The translations under genes and the position numbers were made by a program. From Rhodococcus sp. P-2 (GTDB taxonomy: Bacteria; Actinomycetota; Actinomycetes; Mycobacteriales; Mycobacteriaceae): a DNA stretch of 64,000 bases. The DNA lies in the NCBI RefSeq assembly GCF_016598535.1, contig NZ_CP066779.1:4586053-4650052 (forward strand), read 5' to 3'. Under the pieces are notes generated by a model that ran no database searches, was not told the DNA's origin, and was given only the letters and a program-made list of their open reading frames with translations. Shown here piece after piece: positions 42,892 to 46,496 of the stretch; the first letter of the stretch is position 1; every line of letters starts with the position of its first letter.

Positions 42892-44571
42892 CTACTTGTC
42901 GGCAGGCTTGCCGAGTTCCTGGAAGAGCTTGTCCGTCATCTGCATTGCTCGATCACCACCGTCGGCGTCTGCGACGAACACTGCAAACGCGAAGTCTCCG
43001 CGCGCTCCGTAGAACCAGCGATCGTCACCGCTCGCTGCGCCGGCCGCCATCATGTCCGGGTACCCAGCCAGTCCGCCGGCGCCTCGCATGGCGTCACGCA
43101 GACGATTGTTGACGTCGCCGGGCAATGCCGTCGGCGCGACGTCGGCGGTTGCCGGTTGTCCGAAGACCATCATCGGCAGCGGGGCACTGCCGCGGGCGAT
43201 CGATGCCGCGAGCATCGCCATTCCGAACGGAGTCACTGTCGGCGCGCTCGCGTCGTTGGACGTCTTGTTGGCCATGACGTTGTTCATCGCCTGGTCCACG
43301 CCGGGACGGTTCGCGGCAAGCACTGCTGTCTGCTGTTCGAGTCCCTGAATGTGGAAGCCGTTGCCGAGTCCGAGCTGCTGCCCGGTGTCGGCCAACTGCT
43401 CGGCTGACACGCTGCCGGGGTCGACGCCGTTCTGCATCGACGATGCGAGACGGACCAGATCGAGTGCGCCGCCGGCCGGGCGTAACCCGGTGAAGGCGAT
43501 CGGGCCCTGTTCGATGGCCTGATTGTTCTGTGCTGCAGCCAGAATGGCACCGTCCGACGGGCGGATCGCCACGATGGCCGCGGGAGTACCTGCACTGACG
43601 ACAGCTTCGATCGCGGCGAGTTGAGCGTGCGAGTCGAGAGTCGCGGCAACGTCGGGGCCGGGAGGTCCCTGGAAGCCGGCTTGCTTGATCGGGAATCCGT
43701 TGGGCTCGACCAGGTTGACCGCCCAGCCGGCGGTGGCGTCGCGATTGGCCTGCCACACGGTCCGCAGCGGGTCCAGCAACGGCGAGTTGATGCGACGATC
43801 GGAGGCGATCAGCTTGGGTGTCTTGACCACGACGACGCCGGGGATCGCAAAATCGCTTTCCAGGTAGGCGTAGTCGGGATCGCGGAGCAGTACGGCGGTG
43901 ACGGGCTTGCCTGGGTTGGCGGCGAGGTCGGCCAACATCGACTCCGAAGTGACCAACGGTGCGACAGGTTCGAGCACCGTGGCGAGGCGACGAGTGGTGT
44001 CCACGGGGTCCGGCATGGTGGCCGGGTCGAGAGTGATCGCGTTGATGGTCTGCTCGTTCATGAGCAGGGTGCCGGTGCTGTCGACGACCTTCGGCGGCGC
44101 TGCGTCCGTGCGGGTGTACGAGACGGTGCGACCGTTGCCGAGGTCGGGAACGAGGACCGACGGGTCCCAGGACACACGCCAGCCGACCGACAGATCGCGA
44201 ACCTCACCCTGCGACTGGTAGCTCCAGTCCTTGCCTTCACCGAAGTTCCAGGACGCGTCGAGAGTGAAGAGTCCGGAGTCGCTACCCAGGTCCATGACCT
44301 GAGCGACGTCGAAGTCGGTGGACTTGGCGGCAAGTCCGTCGAACATCTGCTGGATCGACGGCCGCGCGGCGTTGGGGTACGACGTGAGCGCTGCGGCAGC
44401 TTCGGCGTCGTGGTTGTTGAGGGCGGTGACGAAGTCCTCCACCACCGAGGCGGCGTCGGATTTCTTCTCCCCACCGATGACACACGACGCGAGCGCCACT
44501 GTCAGAACGACAGCAGTTATCGACGCAACGACATATTTTCCACGACGGTTGTGCTGTCCTCCGGGCCCCAT
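42892..44571 (-). CDS. Penicillin-binding-protein-like lipoprotein lacking all catalytic motifs
   Basis: The 559-residue protein has a lipoprotein signal ('VALASC', Cys30), an NTF2-like MecA_N domain (~residues 35-150), a PBP dimer-type domain and a transpeptidase-like domain. It aligns well with its neighbour at 44679-46496, but the active-site positions are gone: STFK is replaced by 368-GALD-371 (Ser to Gly, Lys to Asp), the segment holding SxN is deleted (about 45 residues), and KTGT is replaced by 510-AGAA-513. The flanking 'WFYGARGDFAFAVFVADAD' is kept. The frame is intact, so it is not a decayed pseudogene. It is probably a non-catalytic partner or decoy at the cell surface. It lies 107 bases downstream of the active copy. 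Confidence 0.85.
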   Translation of the reverse strand: MGPGGQHNRRGKYVVASITAVVLTVALASCVIGGEKKSDAASVVEDFVTALNNHDAEAAAALTSYPNAARPSIQQMFDGLAAKSTDFDVAQVMDLGSDSGLFTLDASWNFGEGKDWSYQSQGEVRDLSVGWRVSWDPSVLVPDLGNGRTVSYTRTDAAPPKVVDSTGTLLMNEQTINAITLDPATMPDPVDTTRRLATVLEPVAPLVTSESMLADLAANPGKPVTAVLLRDPDYAYLESDFAIPGVVVVKTPKLIASDRRINSPLLDPLRTVWQANRDATAGWAVNLVEPNGFPIKQAGFQGPPGPDVAATLDSHAQLAAIEAVVSAGTPAAIVAIRPSDGAILAAAQNNQAIEQGPIAFTGLRPAGGALDLVRLASSMQNGVDPGSVSAEQLADTGQQLGLGNGFHIQGLEQQTAVLAANRPGVDQAMNNVMANKTSNDASAPTVTPFGMAMLAASIARGSAPLPMMVFGQPATADVAPTALPGDVNNRLRDAMRGAGGLAGYPDMMAAGAASGDDRWFYGARGDFAFAVFVADADGGDRAMQMTDKLFQELGKPADK

Positions 44572-44678: not shown

Positions 44679-46496
44679 TCAGCGCAGAAAAGTACCCGCT
44701 ACCTGCACTGCAGGCGAAGAGCTGTCCGCACCCGCGATGAATACCGCAAATGCGAGATCTCCCTTGATTCCGACAAACCACCCGTGTGCTGGACCACCTT
44801 CGGTTTCGGCCGTACCGGTCTTGCCCAGAAGCCCCGGAATGTCCTGCAACGACGTTGCCGTACCGCCTGTGACGGTCTCGCGCATCATCACCCGCAACTG
44901 TTCGGTCACCTCCGCGGGAGCAGGGGCCACCGTCTGATCCGCGACACCGGCCTGTCCCTTGACCAACATCGGCGCGGGTGTCGTTCCGTTCGCGATCGAG
45001 GCCGCCACCAGAGCCATCCCGAAAGGCGTGGCGGTCACCGTGCCCTGTCCGATCGCACTCTCGACACGTTCGGCGGGCGTGTTCGCGTCAGGGACGTTGC
45101 CCGTCACCGTCGTGAGGCCGGGGGTGACGTAGTCGACGCCGAGCCCGAACTGCAGCGCCACTTTGTGCAGAGCATCGGCAGGCAGACCGACGGCCATCCT
45201 GGCCATGGTGGTGTTGCACGACTTCGCGAACGCGGTGTGCAGCGGAACCGATCCGAGGTCGAACTCGTCGTCATTGGGGATCTGACGGCCCTCGATGTTC
45301 TCGGTACCCGGGCACGCCAGAACGGTGTCCGGTGTAGCGACGCCGGCTTGCAGGGCCGCGGACGTCGTCACGGTCTTGAACGTCGAACCCGGTGGGTACA
45401 GGCCGGTCAACGCGATCGGGCCCTGTGCGTCGGCGGGTGCGTTCTGGGCCACCGCCAACACCGCTCCGGTCGACGGCTGCAGCGCAACGATCGCCGCCTG
45501 TTGCGTAACCCCGGCGAGCGCGTTCTCGGCCGCGAGTTGCAGCGGTCGGTCGATGGTTGTCGCGATGTTCGGAGCAACCGGCCCGTCTTGGCCGGCGACG
45601 GTGGTGACGGTTCCGTTCTGCTTCACCTGCTGCACCGCCCAGCCTGCGGACTTGTCCTGCCCCTCCTGCCACAGATCGGACAACCCACTGAATGTCGGCG
45701 ACGCCAAAGTCTTGTCCACCGAGAGCAACCGAGCCTGCGGCGCCAAGCTCACTCCAGGAATTGCCGCTAACCGCTCCTCGATCGGTGCAAGATCCTCGGC
45801 ACGCAAAGTGATTGCGGTGACCGGCTTCCCGCTTGCCGACGCAAGATCGCCGCTCAGTGATGCCGCCGTGATCGTCGGAGCGACAGGCGAGAGCAGGGCC
45901 GCCACCGCTGCCGTGTCCACCGGTGGAACCGCAGCGGAATCGAGATTGACCAGCGTCACCACCTGCTGCTCCATGATCGGCTGGCCCGCCGCGTCCAGCA
46001 CCGACGGCGGAGCACCTGTCGTGGGCGTGTAGCGCAGCGTCGTCGAGGAGGTCAGGTCCGGGGCGAGCAGCGCCGGATCCCACTGGATCAGCCAGTTGTC
46101 GCCGCTTTTCGACGCGTTTCCCTGCGTCGAGTAGTTCCAGTCCTGCCCCTCACCGAACTTCCACGCCGCGTCGAGCGTGAACGTCCCCGCAGAATCGCCG
46201 GACTCGGCGGCGTCGGAAACGGTGAATGTTCCCTCGTCCTTGCCCAGCCCCTCGATCAGAGCCGAAATCGCAGTCGACGCCGCCGCCGGATCGGTGGTCA
46301 GGGCTGCCGCCGCTTGCACGTCATCCGACGTGAGCGCGGAGGCGAACTCCTCTGCCACTGATTTCGGCTGGTCAGGGCCAGAACTGCAGGAAACCACCGA
46401 TCCTGCGGCCAATGCCCCCAGTGCCACGGCAGCCATGGGACGACGGAAAGTTCGGAAGCTCTGACGAGCGTGTGGAAGGCGCACGACTCCGATCAT
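44679..46496 (-). CDS. Class B penicillin-binding lipoprotein (Rv2864c-like)
   Basis: A 605-residue lipoprotein (lipobox 'SVVSC', Cys37). An NTF2-like MecA_N domain at residues ~40-155 and a dimer domain at ~165-290 precede the transpeptidase domain with all three motifs: STFK (371-374), SCN (426-428) and KTGT (559-562). It cross-links peptidoglycan outside the membrane. Domain order matches mycobacterial Rv2864c and Staphylococcus PBP2a-like proteins; intrinsic low beta-lactam affinity is possible but not readable. An inactive paralogue follows in tandem. Its start is divergent from the RHH-like gene, with a tandem TGTAATCA repeat between. Confidence 0.92.
   Translation of the reverse strand: MIGVVRLPHARQSFRTFRRPMAAVALGALAAGSVVSCSSGPDQPKSVAEEFASALTSDDVQAAAALTTDPAAASTAISALIEGLGKDEGTFTVSDAAESGDSAGTFTLDAAWKFGEGQDWNYSTQGNASKSGDNWLIQWDPALLAPDLTSSTTLRYTPTTGAPPSVLDAAGQPIMEQQVVTLVNLDSAAVPPVDTAAVAALLSPVAPTITAASLSGDLASASGKPVTAITLRAEDLAPIEERLAAIPGVSLAPQARLLSVDKTLASPTFSGLSDLWQEGQDKSAGWAVQQVKQNGTVTTVAGQDGPVAPNIATTIDRPLQLAAENALAGVTQQAAIVALQPSTGAVLAVAQNAPADAQGPIALTGLYPPGSTFKTVTTSAALQAGVATPDTVLACPGTENIEGRQIPNDDEFDLGSVPLHTAFAKSCNTTMARMAVGLPADALHKVALQFGLGVDYVTPGLTTVTGNVPDANTPAERVESAIGQGTVTATPFGMALVAASIANGTTPAPMLVKGQAGVADQTVAPAPAEVTEQLRVMMRETVTGGTATSLQDIPGLLGKTGTAETEGGPAHGWFVGIKGDLAFAVFIAGADSSSPAVQVAGTFLR

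Follow-up and report, generated by a model that had tools for sequence, protein, structure and literature searches.

The window, a 64,000-nucleotide stretch of the Rhodococcus sp. P-2 chromosome, encodes side by side two penicillin-binding proteins (PBPs) with a MecA_N domain, and one of them, called D below, lacks the catalytic motifs of its neighbor. Judged from sequence comparison, D is almost certainly an ancient pseudoenzyme of the MecA_N class B PBPs that has been retained by selection. A first reading of the window from its letters only (the sequence-only reading) had described a catalytically dead PBP of 559 residues next to its active paralogue, and both the open reading frame (ORF) at 42892-44571 and the pairing were confirmed, with the gene on the minus strand. 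In what follows, G, L, and g denote genomes, loci, and genus groups of the window's family (f1), and single letters denote protein lineages: D is the pseudo-transpeptidase, A its tandem active paralogue, T a third copy of the PBP-lipo type, and X a set of inactive copies in g42 and g45.

Gene pair and catalytic motifs

The source genome (G000) is a single contig of 6.34 Mb. The D gene begins with ATG, and the plus-strand frame over the same stretch is interrupted by stops. A lies ahead of D on the same strand (46496 to 44679, then 44571 to 42892) with 107 bp between them, while T, the third MecA_N PBP of this genome, lies at about 377 kb. Both MecA_N and Transpeptidase Pfam domains are found in A, and the two proteins are 37% identical (219/586 alignment columns). 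The parts of the pair, all on the minus strand, are as follows.

42892..44571, minus: D, pseudo-transpeptidase gene, 559 aa (ORF, PF05223, orthologues)
44482..44493, minus: D lipobox LASC, residues 27-30 (read off the translation)
44131..44454, minus: D MecA_N domain, residues 40-147 (PF05223); evolves more slowly than that of A
43672..44130, minus: D pedestal/linker, residues 148-300 (boundaries are our own, based on the Pfam match and the model)
42919..43671, minus: D transpeptidase-like domain, residues 301-551 (model, fold matches to class B PBPs)
43459..43470, minus: D GALD in place of SxxK, residues 368-371 (alignment)
43402..43422, minus: D site of the missing SxN-bearing segment (7 residues in D against 54 in A, where it spans residues 386-440)
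43033..43044, minus: D AGAA in place of KTGT, residues 510-513 (alignment)
44679..46496, minus: A, intact tandem paralogue, 605 aa, MecA_N and Transpeptidase (ORF, Pfam)
45375..45386, minus: A STFK, residues 371-374 (alignment)
45213..45221, minus: A SCN, residues 426-428 (alignment)
44811..44822, minus: A KTGT, residues 559-562 (alignment)

The alignment of the pair bears out what had been noticed by eye: STFK of A has become GALD in D, KTGT has become AGAA, and SCN falls in a stretch that D lacks. We followed these changes in distinct frames of at least 500 residues from loci L001-L208 that scored above 200 bits with the D profile and higher than with the A profile. This gave 112 sequences, or 111 without L073, which ends before the KTG column; the thresholds exclude three broken copies (L071, L145, and L169) and L033, which sits at a contig end, and close relatives are over-represented in this set as in the A-profile set. 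Neither SxN nor KTG/KSG occurred in any of the 111 D proteins. The SxN-bearing segment is reduced to 0 to 7 residues in 110 of them and to 27 in the remaining one, and in 91/111 an Asp or Glu occupies the fourth position of the first tetrad, where A has its catalytic lysine. Among the 86 proteins that scored above 300 bits with the A profile and better with it (A, T, and others), all three motifs were present in 79 and not in 7, for which see X and L200 below. Because the three motif losses recur in orthologues, they are more than a chance occurrence. An unexpected Ser/Lys pair serving as an active site had also been considered from the outset; no conserved pair that could replace the original one was found in the D proteins, and a hidden Ser/Lys-type site was rejected on that ground.

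The regions named by the sequence-only reading fared unevenly. The MecA_N domain is recognized by Pfam (PF05223, E 7.9e-11, residues 40-147), whereas the transpeptidase-like region of the window protein gives no PF00905 match at E≤1 and is recognized by its predicted fold. The same holds more widely, as PF05223 matched 38/38 members of alignment A2 and PF00905 matched 4/38 at E≤0.001. A class B PBP fold is predicted for D and the model matches class B PBP structures, with its MecA_N part barely tested by the VIA fold comparison; in the model, D keeps the pedestal and transpeptidase fold of class B PBPs. The lipoprotein assignment stands for the window protein, with its LASC, but a simple lipobox pattern is present in just 82/111 D proteins; printed examples of the remainder show a hydrophobic N-terminal stretch.

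At the KTG site, 30/111 D proteins carry LVGT, followed by NGP in the printed windows, a new conserved motif. This branch comprises loci L117-L124, L142-L144, L146-L163, and L165 (g7, g9, g32, g34, g38, g40, and g51).

Origin, selection, and distribution of D

In a tree of 77 full-length sequences, all 42 D proteins group in a single, weakly supported clade (56), D and A together are supported at 100, and both are separate from T. When the transpeptidase core was left out (299 columns), D was again one clade, 42/42, with a support of 95, although A is not monophyletic there. Since the core that holds the motifs is absent from this second tree, convergent motif loss cannot drive the D clade.

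D is kept by purifying selection, and sequence comparison places most of the constraint in MecA_N and the pedestal. The ratio of nonsynonymous to synonymous substitution rates (dN/dS), computed by the NG86 method over 20 pairs that share taxa, was 0.094 for D (0.037-0.205) and 0.125 for A (0.057-0.406). By domain, D gave 0.071 for MecA_N, 0.093 for the pedestal, and 0.095 for the transpeptidase-like domain, and A gave 0.139, 0.134 (18 pairs each, two being dropped for high dS), and 0.075. The MecA_N mean of A is inflated by L041-L043 (0.44) and L054-L059 (0.435) and comes to about 0.10 without both by our arithmetic; the A N terminus of L054 looks frame-shifted. Tree lengths were compared without L054 over 27 matched taxa on a fixed topology, and a recheck for misaligned MecA_N rows removed none and left the numbers unchanged. 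In the order MecA_N, pedestal, transpeptidase-like domain, the lengths were 5.50, 5.42, and 8.26 in D versus 7.18, 7.27, and 5.09 in A; the share of invariant columns was 19, 24, and 12% in D versus 14, 13, and 33% in A. Relative to A, then, MecA_N and the pedestal of D evolve more slowly and its transpeptidase-like domain faster, from which it follows that constraint has shifted away from the catalytic domain to MecA_N and the pedestal. Twenty-four positions are D-specific, with conservation of 90% or more across 80 core D proteins (those lacking LVGT) and of less than 20% across 58 proteins that score highly with the A profile, two X among them; 11 lie in the pedestal, 6 in MecA_N, 6 in the transpeptidase-like domain, and 1 in the signal region. 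D-specific residues include R154, R260, R277, and Q301.

The window's D shares 98-99% identity with D from records that carry the names Rhodococcus qingshengii and R. erythropolis, and among the named loci are members of Rhodococcus, Prescottella, Rhodococcoides, and Nocardia. Motif-checked, intact D proteins come from 21 genus groups (g1, g2, g6, g7, g9, g10, g32, g34-g38, g40, g43, g44, g46-g49, g51, and g52), and a strain-specific oddity was rejected for this reason. The suggestion that the ORF is maintained thus holds, and restriction to one strain or general disruption in relatives does not, with broken frames confined to a few copies (L071, L073, L145, and L169). The genomes sampled are unevenly spread over the family. 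Matches at E≤1e-60 were found in 287/401 family genomes, a figure in which D and A are pooled and which does not count D. At E≤1e-8, 13 of 14 genomes of g3, g4, g5, g8, g33, g39, and g50 gave piecewise matches like those of active copies and one gave none; three of these genomes (G030, G062, and G068) were motif-checked and hold intact active copies. Outside the family, every match listed for 298 genomes of the order searched at E≤1e-50, a threshold that leaves room for weaker relatives of D, was of the active kind by its extent, stopping near position 390. Within the window's own genus, G026 (74% complete) gave no match, and G003 carries two D copies on two contigs (C1:97997-99673 and C2:629237-630913).

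Genes around D support orthology and point to no pathway. Among 44 loci, some of which are A or T loci, DUF3054 genes were found at 19, genes for LPG-synthase-type membrane proteins at 21, and HAMP-cyclase genes at 16, all lower bounds from a crude gene caller that missed the window's own DUF3054 gene. A conserved functional neighbor was rejected, as these three kinds of gene name no pathway. Divergent from the A-D pair in the window is a gene for an AbmR-type transcription factor (NF058631; 46594-47148, plus strand).

Other inactive copies occur in the family. The MecA_N PBPs of g42 and g45 that we call X (L126 5542-7626, plus strand; L127 5510-7507, minus strand; L164, L166, L167, and L168) keep the transpeptidase domain at full length, with a Pfam match shown in L126 and L127, and have lost the SxxK and KTG lysines in 6/6. 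The cyclase and LPG-synthase genes seen around D also occur close to L126 and L127. These two fall outside D and A in the full-length tree, and their placement is not settled in the tree without the transpeptidase core. X is probably not a direct relative of D, with which it is joined in neither tree. A further inactive copy, L200 (G064 C36:69102-70892, g35; 480 bits), reads SVFS, TCL, and VAGT at the three sites. From X and L200, inactivation of PBPs seems to be recurrent in this family.

Possible roles of D

On balance, the best explanation overall is probably that D is a membrane-anchored, non-catalytic class B PBP whose pedestal mediates its action on a peptidoglycan synthase complex. D would be exported and then tethered to the membrane, either through a lipid or through a hydrophobic segment at its N terminus. 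Its pedestal would bind the complex by way of T or of a SEDS polymerase (FtsW or RodA, for example), and D would support, gate, or compete with active class B PBPs without cross-linking. The scaffold proposed earlier would fit the move of constraint into MecA_N and the pedestal. The mechanism itself, through a synthase partner and by analogy with known pairs, is plausible without being quite probable. A dedicated extra SEDS partner was rejected, as the number of SEDS genes does not track D in 22 genomes, and the partner would accordingly be a standard FtsW or RodA, or T. A bolder version is more tentative still: D would have been inactive since the ancestor of many genera of this family, fixed once, and would serve as an allosteric or competitive synthase subunit through its pedestal, independently of any tandem active copy, in which case the apparently recurrent inactivation in X and L200 would make pseudo-PBPs a recurrent regulatory solution.

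Several observations weigh against the best explanation. SxxK is present as STLK in 2/111 D proteins (L163 and L165, genus g9), the monophyly of D is weak in the full-length tree, and the model is of middling confidence (mean predicted local distance difference test score 66.8, with residues 79-145 below 50). SEDS genes number 2 to 3 in 12 genomes with D and likewise in 10 without it. G007, a Rhodococcus of the window's genus, has A and no D, so D is dispensable in that lineage, and broken D frames in L071 and L145, where the adjoining A is intact, and in L169 (G391, 99% complete) mean that D can be lost.

D could instead be a sensor that binds peptidoglycan fragments or beta-lactams non-covalently in its altered pocket and relays a signal. 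The retained transpeptidase-like fold, the constraint still acting on that domain (dN/dS 0.095), and the charge reversal of the catalytic lysine to Asp or Glu in 91/111 would suit such a function, but we think it unlikely: this domain is the fastest-evolving part of D and holds few of its specific conserved residues, and about 50 residues beside the pocket are gone.

Somewhat more doubtful is a role of D dedicated to the tandem A, either as its regulator or as its partner in a heterodimer. The sequence-only reading had put forward regulation of the active copy, which our data weaken. A lies upstream on the same strand in 36/39 named loci (in L073 in pieces), 107 bp away in the window, and a simple scan saw no terminator-like site between the two genes, which is weak evidence. 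The three exceptions are L042 and the Nocardia loci L066 and L067. In L042 (Prescottella subtropica), a tblastn search of the 6 kb that precede D gave no A. Two g44 genomes, one of which shares its D with Nocardia cyriacigeorgica L066, carry D and A on separate contigs, with A outside the D locus. A search of 21 genomes with the A profile, picked partly because A seemed missing so that the fractions are no estimate of frequency, found D and T without A in 11/21 (G033, G035, G063, G067, G069, G081, G088, G094, G111, G122, and G323; g7, g9, g34, g38, g40, and g52), D with A in 7/21 (G061, G064, G075, G080, G127, G338, and G391, whose D is broken), A and T without D in 2/21 (G007 and G101), and T alone in G079. 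T was classified in 20/21, the candidate of G064 being left unclassified, and A is told from T by its profile score (580-1012 versus about 390-480 bits) and by KTGT versus KTGE. As 11 genomes hold D without A and two hold A without D, either gene can be lost independently of the other, and D does not need its tandem paralogue.

A beta-lactam decoy, also proposed at first and suggested by the paralogy of D to an intact PBP, is very improbable on sequence grounds, since D has no conserved Ser/Lys pair that could be acylated and has lost the SxN segment (SxN and KTG are gone from 111/111 and SxxK from 109/111). Neutral decay of a duplicate, for which the four broken frames (two beside an intact A) might speak, can be dismissed as a general account given intact D in 21 genus groups at a dN/dS of about 0.09, and some of the breaks are possibly assembly errors, as A is also broken in L073 and the genome of L145 is 79% complete.

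Comparison with known class B PBPs

Like D, the mycobacterial PBP-lipo (Rv2864c/MAB_3167c) is a MecA_N plus transpeptidase class B PBP and a hypothetical lipoprotein. It differs in that it needs its catalytic serine, and its likely orthologue is T, with KTGE, and not D. In L133, T lies beside GcpE, M50, and DXR genes, which we take to be the neighborhood of Rv2864c in M. tuberculosis. According to the available text of PMC9170245, catalysis by PBP-lipo matters, as S364A fails to rescue in Mycobacterium abscessus, and a bocillin test of the protein is described there. A second PBP-lipo is tabulated for environmental mycobacteria, MSMEG_6319 and others, in the accessible part of PMC3987819, which for M. 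smegmatis is at odds with the corresponding text of PMC9170245, where no duplicate is reported. Because G101 of g50, a group we infer to be Mycobacterium, has A and T, that second copy is probably of the A lineage; A has active motifs, and no D was found in the g50 genomes checked.

The low-affinity PBPs offer a second comparison. Enterococcus faecium PBP5 and PBP2a resemble D in carrying MecA_N in their N-terminal part, but unlike D they are active transpeptidases.

Class B PBPs have been studied as enzymes and drug targets, and in the available text of PMC12713402 and PMC8078798 their non-catalytic role comes from engineered or mutant proteins. In the openly licensed literature, as far as its accessible text extends, we came across neither D itself nor any other class B PBP described as naturally a pseudoenzyme. 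A naturally inert, strongly conserved class B PBP would allow the non-catalytic role to be studied on its own, and with it counts of PBPs by homology would overstate the beta-lactam targets of Rhodococcus, Nocardia, and their relatives. In SEDS-class B PBP pairs, the pedestal contacts the SEDS loop ECL4 and is thought to activate the polymerase, according to the part of PMC8078798 at hand. Bacillus subtilis PBP2b and Clostridioides difficile PBP3/SpoVD are class B PBPs that act without catalysis (PMC12713402, in its accessible portion); their inactivity was engineered, whereas D is naturally motif-less across its clade.
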